A stretch of 44,346 nucleotides of DNA from Bacteriovoracaceae bacterium (GCA_947448205.1 CANFNL010000003.1:1-44346); one strand, 5' to 3'. Positions 28,717 to 34,537 are shown, numbered from the stretch's first letter. The notes: a model not told the origin generated them from the sequence alone. Program-made: numbers and translations.

Positions 28717-28743
28717 TTATCGGAATTGAACATTAAAGCTTTA
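28717..28743 (-). promoter_or_regulatory. Sigma-28 (FliA)-type promoter of motAB
   Basis: Read on the minus strand: TAAAGCTT, 11 bases, TCCGATAA. The flagellar sigma-28 consensus is TAAAGTTT-N11-GCCGATAA, so each half has one mismatch and spacing is exact. It lies 24 bases before the motA start codon, leaving a short leader with GGAGG. Confidence 0.8.
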
Positions 28744-29658: not shown

Positions 29659-29686
29659 TTGACAATTAAGTAATTTCTCTTATATT
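29659..29686 (+). promoter_or_regulatory. Sigma-70-like promoter of the pseudo-receiver gene
   Basis: TTGACA (29659-29664, perfect) and TATATT (29681-29686) with 16 bases between. The palindrome at 29685-29702 begins at the end of the -10 element and covers the expected transcription start, a position typical of repression. Confidence 0.6.
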
Positions 29687-29702
29687 ATTCCAAATGGAAT
29701 AA
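29685..29702. promoter_or_regulatory. Palindromic operator candidate, site 1
   Basis: TTATTCC-AAAT-GGAATAA, seven perfect base pairs per arm with a four-base centre, 25 bases before the start codon of the pseudo-receiver gene. The core ATTCC-N4-GGAAT also occurs at 30996-31009 and 34522-34537. Confidence 0.65.
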
Positions 29703-29727
29703 ATTACTCTTAACCTAGGTTCGCTTA

Positions 29728-30186
29728 ATGGTAGAAAATAGTGATAATAATAGTCTATGTCAAATTCCATTTACAGAAGCGAGATTAATCTATCTTATCG
29801 ATAATGAGTTAGATATTTTAGACTTTTTGGAAGAATTATTTATTTCTCTGAATTTTAAAGTTAAAACTTTTTGTGATTGTAATGAAGCACTCTTGAACCT
29901 GAGAAATGATAATCCAGATATTATTATTTCCGAAGTCAAATTGCCAAAAATGAACGGCTTGGAATTTATTGAATACCTAGAAGTAAATGAATTAAAAATT
30001 CCTATTATTTTTATGCCTGGAATTTTAACTGAAGAAATAATGTTACACTCGAATACTTGTAAACCTTTTGCTATAATTGAAAAACCTTTTGACTTTGGAA
30101 GTTTATTCTCTACGTGCCTGTCTGCACTAGGATATTCACAGAAAGAAGTGAATTATTTAATGGCAGAGACAATAAATTTATTATAG
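29728..30186 (+). CDS. Receiver-like protein with Glu at the phosphorylation site
   Basis: A 152-residue CheY-like protein with altered active-site residues. The acidic pair is D25-N26 in LIYLIDNELDIL. The phospho-acceptor position holds E69 in PDIIISEVKLPKMNGLEF, a natural phosphomimetic substitution. The switch Thr/Ser is P97 in IPIIFMPG, while K119 in IEKPFD is kept. It therefore cannot be phosphorylated normally and may be locked in one state or act by protein binding. Its promoter is overlapped by an ATTCC-N4-GGAAT palindrome. The 3' end overlaps the convergent methyltransferase gene by 34 bases. Confidence 0.85.
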   Translation: MVENSDNNSLCQIPFTEARLIYLIDNELDILDFLEELFISLNFKVKTFCDCNEALLNLRNDNPDIIISEVKLPKMNGLEFIEYLEVNELKIPIIFMPGILTEEIMLHSNTCKPFAIIEKPFDFGSLFSTCLSALGYSQKEVNYLMAETINLL

Positions 30187-30935
30187 AAAAGAGTGTTTTC
30201 TTCTTTAAGCATTTCTTCTAAATATAGTTTTGAAAATTCTTCTGCTAAGTTGTAATTGCCAAGCAAATGAGTAAGTGTTTTTTTTGCCAATCTTAATCGC
30301 TCTTTGTTATTTTTATACTCCATCTGTAAATCCTCACCGGAGAATTGTTCAGCAGAAACACTCCACGTTATCTTTCGAAATCCCGATTGCTTTAAAATTG
30401 CAGGTAATTTTCGTCCAATGTTTAGATCTGATAAAAAATTATTTTTAATAATAGTAAAGAGTTGGTTAAAACGCTCATTTGTTGAATACAAATTAACAAA
30501 TACACCATCAAAGTCAACGATATTAATTTCTCCATCTTTTTTCAGAACTCTGTATAGTTCACTTGTAACTACTTTAGGATCTTTAAGATGTTCATATACA
30601 TATCGAGAAACGATTAGATCATACGTGTCGTCCCTAATTTGTAATTTTTCTAAGTCAGCATGAATAAAATTAATTTTTGAAAACTTAGCACCTTTAGAGA
30701 GATTTTTTGCTTGTTGAATTCTTAGTTCTGAAAAATCACAAGCATCTATTTGTAAATTTTTTTCTATCTCTAATAAGTATCTTGAGAGTAGTCCACTTCC
30801 ACATCCAGCATCGAGAACTTTTGATGATTTTTTAAGTTTAAGTTGATGAAATTCTTCGTAAATATTATAGTGTTTTTGCTTAGCTTGCCATTCCAATCTT
30901 GTAGATTCATCTTCATGCTCATTAGCATAGCTCAT
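30153..30935 (-). CDS. Class I SAM-dependent methyltransferase
   Basis: A 260-residue methyltransferase of the UbiE/small-molecule type. VLDAGCGSGLLSRYLLE is motif I, DACDFSELRIQQA motif II, FIHADLEKLQIRDDTYDLIVSRYVYEHL (given here in parts: HADLEKLQ, YDLIVSRYVYEHL) motifs III-IV, and ELYRVLKKDGEINIVD motif V-VI. The acceptor substrate is unknown; small molecules are likely. GAGG precedes ATG 30935. It is divergent from the acyltransferase-like gene at 31078, and the shared region contains a palindromic operator candidate. Confidence 0.9.
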   Translation of the reverse strand: MSYANEHEDESTRLEWQAKQKHYNIYEEFHQLKLKKSSKVLDAGCGSGLLSRYLLEIEKNLQIDACDFSELRIQQAKNLSKGAKFSKINFIHADLEKLQIRDDTYDLIVSRYVYEHLKDPKVVTSELYRVLKKDGEINIVDFDGVFVNLYSTNERFNQLFTIIKNNFLSDLNIGRKLPAILKQSGFRKITWSVSAEQFSGEDLQMEYKNNKERLRLAKKTLTHLLGNYNLAEEFSKLYLEEMLKEENTLFYNKFIVSAIK

Positions 30936-30995
30936 AGATACCTCATTTTATATATTAAACATTGTTTCGGAATCTTTGTTTTGAACTTTAGCTAT

Positions 30996-31009
30996 ATTCC
31001 ACACGGAAT
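30996..31009. promoter_or_regulatory. Palindromic operator candidate, site 2
   Basis: ATTCC-ACAC-GGAAT in the 142-base divergent region between the methyltransferase (60 bases away) and the acyltransferase-like gene (68 bases away). Related half sites are near: TTTCGGAAT at 30965-30973 and an imperfect TTTCC-GAAT-GGATT at 31046-31059. Confidence 0.65.
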
Positions 31010-31077
31010 TATTAAAATAATTTTTAAATTAAGTATTTCAGTTCATTTCCGAATGGATTTCAAAATTTGGAGGAAAT

Positions 31078-31836
31078 ATGGAAAATAAATCAAAATTTAG
31101 AGTAATTGTTTTGCGTTGTCCATATGATAACTTTTATAATCCTATGGTGCGAGATTTATTTCCTAAAATTGCCCAATTAAAAATAAAGGGCTATCAGAAA
31201 GAATATCCATATGGAGTATTGCCTTTTGATGCTTCCGATTTTATTGCCACTCACATTCTTCTCTGTGAGGATTTAAAAACTGGGCTTAAGCCAATTATGG
31301 GATTCAAATCGGTTACTCTCGAGAGGTGTGATTTGCATAAAATAAATTTTCCTATTTTTGGAATGCTTAAAAGCAATGATAAAACTGATATACATGAGGA
31401 GTCTGTCTTAAAATTAGTGCAAACTTATCGAGAAAGAGGGATTGCTCATAGGCTTGCCTACAATGGCTCTTTTACGATAGATCCTGATTTTAGAGCTTCA
31501 GAGAAAGTAAAAAAAGAAATTTGGGGAATAGCAACGACATTGGTAGTAAAGTATTATGAGGAATACTTTATAGATCATGTCATTGCAGTATGCGCTACAA
31601 CCTTTAAGGTTGACCGATATAAGCGCTATCTCGGTTGGATTAATTTAAATGATGCTTTTGGAAATGAACTCCCTTCGTATAAATGTTATGCGCTCTCCGA
31701 GGCACCTCTGAAGGTTATGCATGTCACAGAAGTTAGTGAAGCTGCCAAGTCGGATGCACTTAAATATATTGATCTTTGGAATAAGCGAATTACCATTGAA
31801 GAAAATATGGGCAAAGTCTTAGAGAATGCAGCTTAA
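31078..31836 (+). CDS. Acyltransferase-like protein (GNAT or autoinducer-synthase-like fold suspected)
   Basis: A 252-residue cytosolic protein. The layout YPYGVLPFDASDFIATHILL, then KPIMGFKSVTLERCD, SFTIDPDFRAS and a helix followed by HVIAVCATTFKVDRYKRYLGW recalls GNAT-fold enzymes such as the N-acyl amino acid (FeeM) and LuxI groups: Asp in the first loop, a His-Leu-Leu strand, then a Gly-x-x-R-like strand. This is a fold-level impression, not an identification. GGAGG lies before ATG 31078. It converges on the HTH gene with only three bases between stops and has an operator candidate upstream. It could make a small acylated compound. Confidence 0.6.
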   Translation: MENKSKFRVIVLRCPYDNFYNPMVRDLFPKIAQLKIKGYQKEYPYGVLPFDASDFIATHILLCEDLKTGLKPIMGFKSVTLERCDLHKINFPIFGMLKSNDKTDIHEESVLKLVQTYRERGIAHRLAYNGSFTIDPDFRASEKVKKEIWGIATTLVVKYYEEYFIDHVIAVCATTFKVDRYKRYLGWINLNDAFGNELPSYKCYALSEAPLKVMHVTEVSEAAKSDALKYIDLWNKRITIEENMGKVLENAA

Positions 31837-31839
31837 TGT

Positions 31840-32745
31840 TTATTGAAATTGGTTGTAGGAATTTTTAGTAGCAAAACTAACATGATAATCGCAGGATTTA
31901 TCACTTTTAGCGAGACAAGAGATTTTCTTGACTCTAGCATTTGGTTGGTTAATAAATCGAGTAATACTTGAAGCAAAGCCTAATCTCAGCAGGCACATAT
32001 GTTGATTGATAATCTGACTTCCAATTTCTTCAAGCTCTGAGTTTAATTTTCCTGAAAGAACACACGTTTCTGAGCTGATAGACTTAATTCTCCAACAAAA
32101 ATTTCGTTCAACATATTTCTCCAAAACACCAGAAAACATTATTTCATAGGCTTCTGGAGCACTTCGAGCTTCTTTGATTAAGCCAGCAACGATACTTTCT
32201 TTTGAATAATCATAGAAGTGCATTCCCATTCCAATAATATCTTCTTTTGAGCCATTTTCAAAAAGACTCTTGCAAATATCAAGCGGAAGGAAAATATTAT
32301 TCAATGCATCTGGATTCACAAAATGATTTTCGTTAAGTTGCATTTTTCTCATAAGGCTGAGGCGTTGGTGATATCCGTATTTAGAATTGATGTAATCGAG
32401 CATATATATGGCCGAGCGTCGGTTGCTATTTGCTGATTGTTGATAACGCTCCGGAAGATAGTTTAAATTGCCATCGGCTTGTTGAGCTAGAGCTCTATAA
32501 TCAACAGAGTTATGTAAAATGGCTTCAAAGCAAATATTGTACTCGTCTAAAATTTCATACACGGAAAGCAATGGCAATTCCATTTTTCCCAAAAGATATT
32601 CTTGAAAACTTAGGTCACTTAACTGAAGCTTCTCTGCCATCTCATTATCAGTTAGATTAAGTGAATTTTGAAAGCCATTAATAAAAACTTTAAAATTTTT
32701 TTTAATAACTTCATTATTTAATTTATTGTCATATGATACAGGCAT
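31840..32745 (-). CDS. HTH-containing regulator with V4R-like tail, paralogue 2
   Basis: A 301-residue protein. Residues about 15-70 look like an XRE-type helix-turn-helix (MAEKLQLSDLSFQEYLLGKM, less canonical than in its neighbour). The C-terminal 200 residues form a probable ligand-binding domain that ends in SCLAKSDKSCDYHVSF, a Cys-x7-Cys pattern as in V4R domains, known in other regulators to bind small molecules or metal. The upstream gene has the same layout and tail, so the two are related. It overlaps the end of that gene by 28 bases. AAAGGTG precedes ATG 32745. Confidence 0.7.
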   Translation of the reverse strand: MPVSYDNKLNNEVIKKNFKVFINGFQNSLNLTDNEMAEKLQLSDLSFQEYLLGKMELPLLSVYEILDEYNICFEAILHNSVDYRALAQQADGNLNYLPERYQQSANSNRRSAIYMLDYINSKYGYHQRLSLMRKMQLNENHFVNPDALNNIFLPLDICKSLFENGSKEDIIGMGMHFYDYSKESIVAGLIKEARSAPEAYEIMFSGVLEKYVERNFCWRIKSISSETCVLSGKLNSELEEIGSQIINQHMCLLRLGFASSITRFINQPNARVKKISCLAKSDKSCDYHVSFATKNSYNQFQ

Positions 32746-33599
32746 TGGTTGGCACCTTTATGTAGACATTCTTTTTCAGTGATAATGATTTCTGCATGTT
32801 TTGTTTCGTAGAGGGCAAAGTTTTTAAGATACTCTTTTTTATGAGTACAAAATATGTCCTTTGAAAATTCATGTTCCAAGTAATTAGATTTTAATACGTG
32901 TTGCTCTGGCTTGATGGATAAGTTGATATAATTGTTTTTATGGCTAATAACCTCGTAGGAGAAGTTTTCTTGGTATTTCGATTGATTAGAGACAAATGAG
33001 AGAAGTTTTTTGTCAGCATCTTTTAGGTTTTTGTAATTGGCATACAATGCCCCTTGGATTTCTTCGGTTCCTGCATAGTGGGAGAGTTCTATAATGTCAT
33101 TTTTAGATAATTTTCCTTTCTTAATTAATAGACTTATAAAATCTAGATAAAAATTAAAATTTATTTGGTTGTCATGATTGTATATAAAAAATGGATCTAC
33201 TTCTAAAGTTTCGATTAAACTATGTAGTTTACTGGTTCCAAATTTATTTTCAGCAAATCGAAAGACTGGATTTAATTCTCGAATTTTTGTGTAACGATCG
33301 CTTGAATATTTTTTGGGTAGTCTAAATCCATTTTCAAGTGCCGAACTTCTGTGTTGGACGCTGGTCTTTTTATCCAGATAACCAACAAATAATGATCCTG
33401 GATCAATGTTTAGCTCATTACAAAGCTGAAGCCACATGAGTGAGGAGGGGAGCAGTGCTCCACTTTCTATTTTTGAAATTGTCGACTGGGCGGCACCTAA
33501 AGTTTGAGCTAGCTCAGATTGACCTATTCCACTTTCTAGCCTGGCACATTTAAAAATTCTCGATATTTTTTGTGCGGCTTCTTTTTCTTGGGGATTCAT
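32718..33599 (-). CDS. XRE-family regulator with V4R-like tail, paralogue 1
   Basis: A 293-residue transcriptional regulator. The N-terminal HTH is clear: RLESGIGQSELAQTLGAAQS and TISKIESGALLPSS (residues about 20-55). The rest is a probable sensor domain ending in KECLHKGANQCLYHMTIN with the Cys-x7-Cys pattern shared with the gene downstream. It follows the alpha/beta hydrolase by 20 bases and overlaps its paralogue by 28, so the three genes are one operon. It is a good candidate to bind the ATTCC-N4-GGAAT palindromes. Confidence 0.85.
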   Translation of the reverse strand: MNPQEKEAAQKISRIFKCARLESGIGQSELAQTLGAAQSTISKIESGALLPSSLMWLQLCNELNIDPGSLFVGYLDKKTSVQHRSSALENGFRLPKKYSSDRYTKIRELNPVFRFAENKFGTSKLHSLIETLEVDPFFIYNHDNQINFNFYLDFISLLIKKGKLSKNDIIELSHYAGTEEIQGALYANYKNLKDADKKLLSFVSNQSKYQENFSYEVISHKNNYINLSIKPEQHVLKSNYLEHEFSKDIFCTHKKEYLKNFALYETKHAEIIITEKECLHKGANQCLYHMTIN

Positions 33600-33619
33600 T
33601 TGAATATGTCCTAAAAGTA

Positions 33620-34459
33620 TTACACTACTGATGTTTCTCTTGTGACTTTAAGTGTATCAATTTTTATTCCATGATTAAAAAATATTTTATTGGAAAATTC
33701 TAATAAAGTGGCATTAAATATTTCTGGTACTTCAATTTGGGGACTATGTCCTGAGGCAATTTGCAAAAATTCAAACCTTGAATTCTCGGGAATAATATTT
33801 TGGGTATAGTCACTATTAATAATCTTATCATCCATGCATATCAGACTCAAAAAGTAGCCGCCAAAGTTTTTTAATAAATCAACCTCATCCAGATAGAGAT
33901 TGTTGGCTACAGAATTAAAAATCTGGGTTCTGAAGTTTGCATCTGACTTTTGATAATCGATAATAAATTGAGTTGTATCTTGTTGGTTATATTTTAATTC
34001 CTCTGCCAAAAGGCTTAATTGCTCCTCACTGCTTTCTGCCATACTCAATGGGAGGGCATTTGTATTGGCCAAAAAACTTTCAGGGTAAAATGGTTTAGAC
34101 AAAGGCGGTGTCCCGAAAATTAAAAGACCTTGAGGTGCTAGTTTTTCCAGCATGTGCAAGGCTACGTGTCCTCCCAGCGAATGACCTACTATTAAAAAAT
34201 TTGTAATGGTTAAGCTATCAATAAATTCTACAAGTACGTTGGCAATATTTATTAATGAATAGCTTGCCAGTTTATCAGATTCACCATGACCTGGTAGATC
34301 AATGAAAATGAGTCTGTATGCACTCAGAGAACTATTATTTAGTTGATTCAAATAACTAAGTGATGAGTGGGAATTGCCATGCAAAAATATGATTGTCTGT
34401 TGGGCTTCTGAGTTTTTTTCTAAATAATGTACTTTTTGATTGTTTATCTCTAAAAACAT
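33620..34459 (-). CDS. Alpha/beta-fold hydrolase
   Basis: A 279-residue serine hydrolase. IIFLHGNSHSS provides the oxyanion hole, LPGHGESD the conserved strand 4 turn, VGHSLGGHVAL the nucleophile S94, CMDDKII the acid and SGHSPQIE the catalytic His. The fold covers esterases, lactonases and thioesterases, so the substrate is open. No signal peptide. First gene of an operon with the two XRE regulators, with palindrome 3 located 63 bases upstream. A lactonase or thioesterase acting on a signal or its precursor is possible but is inference. Confidence 0.9.
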   Translation of the reverse strand: MFLEINNQKVHYLEKNSEAQQTIIFLHGNSHSSLSYLNQLNNSSLSAYRLIFIDLPGHGESDKLASYSLINIANVLVEFIDSLTITNFLIVGHSLGGHVALHMLEKLAPQGLLIFGTPPLSKPFYPESFLANTNALPLSMAESSEEQLSLLAEELKYNQQDTTQFIIDYQKSDANFRTQIFNSVANNLYLDEVDLLKNFGGYFLSLICMDDKIINSDYTQNIIPENSRFEFLQIASGHSPQIEVPEIFNATLLEFSNKIFFNHGIKIDTLKVTRETSVV

Positions 34460-34521
34460 ATTTTTATCCCCTATTTTTCAATAAGGTTAATTTATTTGAC
34501 TATATTCATTATGACAATAGA

Positions 34522-34537
34522 TATTCCTTTAGGAATA
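34522..34537. promoter_or_regulatory. Palindromic operator candidate, site 3
   Basis: TATTCC-TTTA-GGAATA, six perfect base pairs per arm with a four-base centre, upstream of the hydrolase-XRE-XRE operon. A possible -10 (TATAGT on the minus strand, 34498-34503) places this palindrome about at the -35 region. Confidence 0.65.

Follow-up and report, generated by a model that had tools for sequence, protein, structure and literature searches.

A palindromic site conserved at a Bdellovibrionota gene cassette, and its possible role as the operator of an acyl-signal system with an XRE-type receptor

The window analysed here is a stretch of 44,346 nucleotides of Bacteriovoracaceae bacterium DNA (GCA_947448205.1, CANFNL010000003.1:1-44346). 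One neighbourhood of about 5 kb within it contains genes for a single-domain receiver, a methyltransferase (MT), an acyltransferase (ACT), two paralogous XRE-type regulators (XRE1 and XRE2) and an alpha/beta hydrolase (ABH), together with three exact copies of the palindrome ATTCC-N4-GGAAT (Table 1). In the translated receiver, Glu replaces the phospho-acceptor Asp, and the protein is therefore probably a pseudo-receiver. With this Glu it is possibly a constitutive mimic and the output of the system.

Table 1. Genes, palindromes and candidate promoters of the cluster, with one group of proteins from relatives (positions are those of the window unless a locus is named)
Feature	Position	Strand	Description
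Candidate sigma-70 promoter of receiver gene	29659-29686	+	TTGACA-16-TATATT, 11/12 matches
Palindrome copy 1	29685-29702		TTATTCC-AAAT-GGAATAA; before receiver gene, begins directly after promoter -10 hexamer
Receiver	29728-30186	+	Single-domain receiver; Pfam Response_reg, 1.2e-15
MT	30153-30935	-	SAM-dependent methyltransferase, BioC/UbiG-like; domain matches
Candidate sigma-28 (FliA) promoter of MT gene	30964-30990	-	TAAAGTTC-N11-TCCGAAAC, 1 mismatch
Palindrome copy 2	30996-31009		ATTCC-ACAC-GGAAT; between divergent MT and ACT genes
Degenerate fourth site	31046-31059		TTTCC-GAAT-GGATT, 2 mismatches; about 26 bp before ACT start
ACT	31078-31836	+	GNAT-fold acyltransferase, candidate signal synthase; predicted fold
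XRE2	31840-32745	-	XRE1 paralogue; degenerate N-terminal HTH, Cys-bearing V4R-like C-terminus
XRE1	32718-33599	-	HTH_19/HTH_3 N-terminus and H-NOX/V4R-like predicted fold; proposed operator-binding receptor-regulator
ABH	33620-34459	-	Alpha/beta hydrolase, first gene of operon; domain matches
Palindrome copy 3	34522-34537		TATTCC-TTTA-GGAATA; upstream of hydrolase-XRE1-XRE2 operon
Histidine-kinase-like proteins of relatives, about 206 aa	L079:7249-7869, L094:3006-3629, L099:6780-7406, others

The first-pass annotation of this DNA had reported three copies of the palindrome and no others in the window. A pattern search agrees: ATTCCNNNNGGAAT has exactly three matches, at 29687-29700, 30996-31009 and 34523-34536. 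The longer arms described for the first and third copies read as claimed, and all three copies have the intergenic positions assigned to them, before the receiver gene, between the MT and ACT genes and before the hydrolase-XRE1-XRE2 operon. The annotation had also judged such a recurrence to be improbable by chance, and the numbers bear this out: 0.12 matches are expected in the window, none of 100 dinucleotide shuffles reached three, and the Poisson probability of at least three copies in 4.85 kb is about 2e-7. The degenerate fourth site lies at the same distance from the ACT start as the exact site does in several relatives.

The genome to which the window belongs (searched as 2.63 Mb in 203 contigs, 89% complete) contains nine copies of ATTCC-N4-GGAAT and one of the reversed control pattern. 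The genome-wide enrichment that the first-pass annotation had proposed as a check was seen in location, not in number: the total is near chance and the positions are not. All intergenic copies found belong to the cluster, and the six copies outside it sit within long reading frames. When the 16-bp form TATTCCN4GGAATA is searched with one mismatch allowed, the 12 additional copies all sit within reading frames too, and no further intergenic copy of this form was found in the genome outside the 5-kb cluster. On this ground we rejected a wider regulon in this genome. The location of the copies also led us to reject a genomic repeat.

The equivalent cassette proteins of relatives are only about 25-45% identical, yet the palindrome recurs in their upstream regions, repeatedly before ACT, XRE1, MT, ABH or an adjoining gene. 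The proposal that it is a shared regulatory site for the cluster thus gains support from its presence upstream of equivalent genes in many genera. The exact site precedes 14 of 205 cassette gene starts and 0 of 300 control starts from the same loci (Fisher 2.5e-6), and the site with at most one mismatch precedes 41 of 205 and 7 of 300 (Fisher 2.7e-11), where some shared divergent regions enter once for each of their genes and the Fisher values ignore kinship; the reversed motif precedes 1 of 205 and 0 of 300. In the order, 13 of 41 ACT starts have the palindrome (at most one mismatch), and sites are also present in cassettes outside the order (L118 and L125). An unbiased scan of the cassette upstream regions for gapped inverted repeats ranked TATTC with a gap of six and ATTCC with a gap of four at the top by frequency, and these are one and the same palindrome. 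The 42 sites in 27 loci share a symmetric ATTC(C) arm that hardly varies, around a four-base centre that is free, although the sharpness of the arm is partly by construction because sites were chosen at no more than one mismatch. Taken as a cis-regulatory site of the cassette, the palindrome leaves us with very little doubt.

The genes of the cluster form a cassette that is conserved in Bdellovibrionota. Of the 129 genomes of the order, 47 contain ACT relatives and 75 contain XRE1 relatives, and the ACT profile matches 88 of 369 genomes of the phylum, in 48 genera. ACT adjoins at least one XRE gene in 52 of 57 mapped loci, where MT is usually present, ABH often, and a convergent orientation of the ACT and XRE genes is the commonest. 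One genome of the same phylum (G136) encodes a histone identical to PDB chain 8fvx, which we take to be the B. bacteriovorus histone, and this identity gives the phylum as Bdellovibrionota; the histone of another genome (G145) differs at one position. The cassette-bearing members of the phylum include a genome with a histone identical to the solved Bdellovibrio histone.

Two variants of the arrangement were seen. One genus (g36, L041-L069) commonly has XRE1-like regulators with no acyltransferase close by, which recall LuxR solos. In a Bdellovibrio-like family (L115, L119-L122 and L124), ACT is divergent from E1/ThiF-like and cysteine-synthase-like genes, names that were assigned by reading the sequence, without a domain scan. 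These loci have a single XRE2-like regulator and no recognisable palindrome, and the variant cassette possibly uses a different signal chemistry.

Both XRE proteins had been put forward as candidate binders of the palindrome, and this holds for one of them. XRE1 contains an HTH_3/HTH_19 domain above the gathering score (4.5e-9). XRE2 has no HTH_3 or HTH_19 match above the gathering score and no recognisable HTH, which leaves XRE1 alone as the clear DNA-binding candidate of the cluster. The site is present in 24 of 40 cassettes with an HTH-bearing XRE and in 2 of 17 without one (Fisher 0.001). The site-bearing exceptions are a locus with an in-frame fusion of XRE1 and the hydrolase (L075) and one whose contig ends inside ACT (L090). 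The other 16 cassettes with an HTH-bearing XRE have no recognisable site, from which we conclude that their operator has changed in sequence or position. Around XRE homologues that lack the cassette, no consistent palindrome was found. A symmetric site of 14 bp would suit a dimer of a lambda/434-type XRE protein. From the co-occurrence of the site with an HTH-bearing XRE, XRE1 probably binds the palindrome, and XRE1, not XRE2, is the likely binder. XRE2 has kept the sensor part while its HTH is degenerate; instead of binding DNA, it may therefore act with XRE1 as a partner or against it as an antagonist.

ACT has no Pfam or NCBIfam match, and a sequence search against the PDB gave none. In its predicted model (pLDDT 93), the GNAT fold of AHL synthases is seen. 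The best PDB matches (Foldseek) are MesI, BjaI, FeeM and LasI, although AHL synthases reach moderate TM-scores (0.5-0.6), with other GNATs close behind. In the XRE1 model (pLDDT 93.8), XRE HTH domains match the N-terminus and H-NOX domains are the best matches overall, covering most of the C-terminal part; palmitoyl-TRAPPC3 and the MopR sensor domain also match. Pfam V4R (PF02830) matches 3 of 45 family members (best 4.8e-9) and neither XRE protein of the window, and XRE2 has a weak match to the MsvR C-terminus. Ligands of the V4R/TRAPPC3 fold include palmitate, bound by TRAPPC3, and phenols, bound by PoxR (PMC10933270), and an acyl ligand is therefore plausible for XRE1. Heme is unlikely, because the H-NOX YxSxR motif occurs in 2 of 92 family members and the single match in XRE1 of the window looks like chance and is unconserved in the family; H-NOX-style heme sensing was rejected for this reason.

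The placement of the sites relative to candidate promoters bears on how they might act. The position of copy 1, directly after the predicted -10 of the receiver gene, would be that of a repressor site. Copy 2 stops 5 bp upstream of the -35 of the sigma-28-like MT promoter, and copy 3 is 5 bp upstream of a candidate -35 of the hydrolase operon (TTGTCA-17-TAAATT). In L083, L094, L099 and L109 nothing separates the sigma-28 -10 from the operator that follows it. Such a placement directly behind the -10, seen in several relatives, suggests repression that would be relieved by ligand; the window sites upstream of a -35 would also allow activation. Among relatives, the operator is likewise seen upstream of receivers (L073 and L087) or of proteins with a histidine-kinase-type ATPase domain (e.g., L079, L086, L094 and L099), which suggests a two-component output. 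Histidine-kinase-like ATPase proteins of about 206 residues, without a sensor domain, adjoin the operator in many relatives (Table 1).

The sigma-28 pattern, with at most two mismatches, is found at 14 of 94 ACT or MT starts and 3 of 293 control starts (Fisher 4e-7, an optimistic value because the pattern was noticed in the same sequences before testing), and altered spacings or a permuted pattern give far fewer matches. The MT/ACT promoters of several cassettes match TAAAGTT-N13-CCGATA, like those of the Bdellovibrio FliA attack-phase regulon. In the available part of the published account of that regulon, two-thirds of the mapped B. bacteriovorus attack-phase promoters are of the FliA type (TTAAG-N16-CCGATA), and a signalling cassette is not reported there among the members (PMC3627812). 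Since promoters of this type dominate the attack phase in B. bacteriovorus, we infer that the cassette may be expressed in that phase. Sigma-28 (FliA)-like promoters before MT or ACT genes were also seen in L072, L079, L099 and L109. The motA gene of the window carries the same sigma-28-like promoter (28717-28743, minus strand).

The cassette resembles LuxI/LuxR systems in having a synthase-like enzyme of the same predicted fold beside a two-domain, ligand-sensing regulator, and in having a palindrome upstream of the candidate synthase, as the lux box is. It differs from them in that the regulator is XRE plus H-NOX/V4R-like, not LuxR, and in its extra methyltransferase and hydrolase. The Pfam LuxI model (PF00765) has no match in ACT, and its matches in seven related genomes lie away from the ACT positions. 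The weak matches of this model at non-ACT proteins (G030:C72, G033:C276 and G123:C16) possibly mark a second GNAT family related to autoinducer synthases. ACT shares its predicted fold with the FeeM-type N-acyl amino acid synthases (2g0b, E 8e-6), but it lacks a match to them at the sequence level and is tied to dedicated regulators and an operator. The predicted sensor fold of the XRE1 C-terminus is like that of PoxR, MopR and MsvR, whereas in the cassette this sensor is joined to an XRE-type HTH.

We favour the reading, which we consider reasonably probable, that the palindrome serves a self-contained cassette as its operator and that XRE1, in this cassette, senses an acyl signal from the LuxI/FeeM-fold ACT. 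ACT would make an acylated small molecule that the methyltransferase and the hydrolase would modify, and an XRE1 dimer would bind ATTCC-N4-GGAAT at the receiver, MT/ACT and hydrolase-XRE1-XRE2 promoters. The H-NOX/V4R-type pocket in the C-terminal part of XRE1 would sense the ACT-derived molecule, which could be diffusible. The cassette would thereby govern both its own synthesis and an output protein of the two-component type, in a lux-box-like manner and through a receptor unrelated to LuxR. That there is an acyl signal with the XRE protein as its receptor we hold to be slightly on the probable side.

Other explanations share part of this evidence. XRE1 could bind the palindrome as the operator of an operon that serves the cell's own metabolism or lipid modification, with feedback by a ligand and no cell-to-cell signal. 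GNAT enzymes, methyltransferases and hydrolases are common among the enzymes that modify lipids and amino acids, metabolite sensing is frequent in V4R folds, and products of FeeM-type enzymes can be surfactants or antibiotics. However, the operator also precedes receivers and histidine-kinase-like proteins in several relatives, and genomes with receptor homologues (75) outnumber those with the synthase (47), as with receptor solos, and we regard such an operon as rather unlikely. The palindrome could instead be bound by a regulator encoded elsewhere, neither XRE1 nor XRE2: the case for XRE1 binding is one of co-occurrence, and the CC-N4-GG core of the palindrome resembles the box of the LuxR-type regulator CviR, CTGNCC-N4-GGNCAG (PMC9654057). 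We think this improbable, as the presence of the site goes with that of an HTH-bearing XRE within one cassette and no other intergenic copies were found in the genome. LuxR itself was rejected as the binder, since the LuxR autoinducer-binding domain (PF03472) was detected in an E. coli control and in 0 of the 129 genomes.

Each copy can also fold as a stem of 5-7 bp with a tetraloop (-3.8 to -6.1 kcal/mol), as would be expected if the repeats were RNA hairpins, that is, attenuators or stability elements in 5' leaders. Yet the arm sequence itself, beyond its pairing, is nearly invariant across genera, copies 2 and 3 are upstream of the candidate MT and ABH promoters, and there is no T tract, which makes hairpins very improbable. 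Chance clustering of a ten-base pattern would agree with the genome total of nine, which is near the shuffle expectation of about seven, but all non-coding copies are at the cluster and relatives carry the palindrome at the same cassette genes. Location and recurrence refute chance in practice, and we give it almost no credence.

If XRE1 does sense an acyl product of ACT, the cassette might serve communication between cells. B. bacteriovorus has been reported to lack quorum sensing (2023 review, PMC10225642), and Bacteriovorax marinus has been placed among AI-2 listeners only (PMC11069264). A literature search, of a kind that misses most subscription journals, found no paper describing the cassette. 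Cell-to-cell quorum sensing by the cassette is to us an evenly balanced proposition. We give the same even weight to the cassette being an undescribed class of Bdellovibrionota quorum-sensing system, composed of a LuxI/FeeM-fold synthase, XRE-V4R receptors, the ATTCC-N4-GGAAT box and FliA-type promoters. If this is true, the LuxI/FeeM fold would gain a receptor partner other than LuxR, the operator would be a ready reporter for finding the signal, and predator-to-predator communication would become directly testable in Bdellovibrionota.
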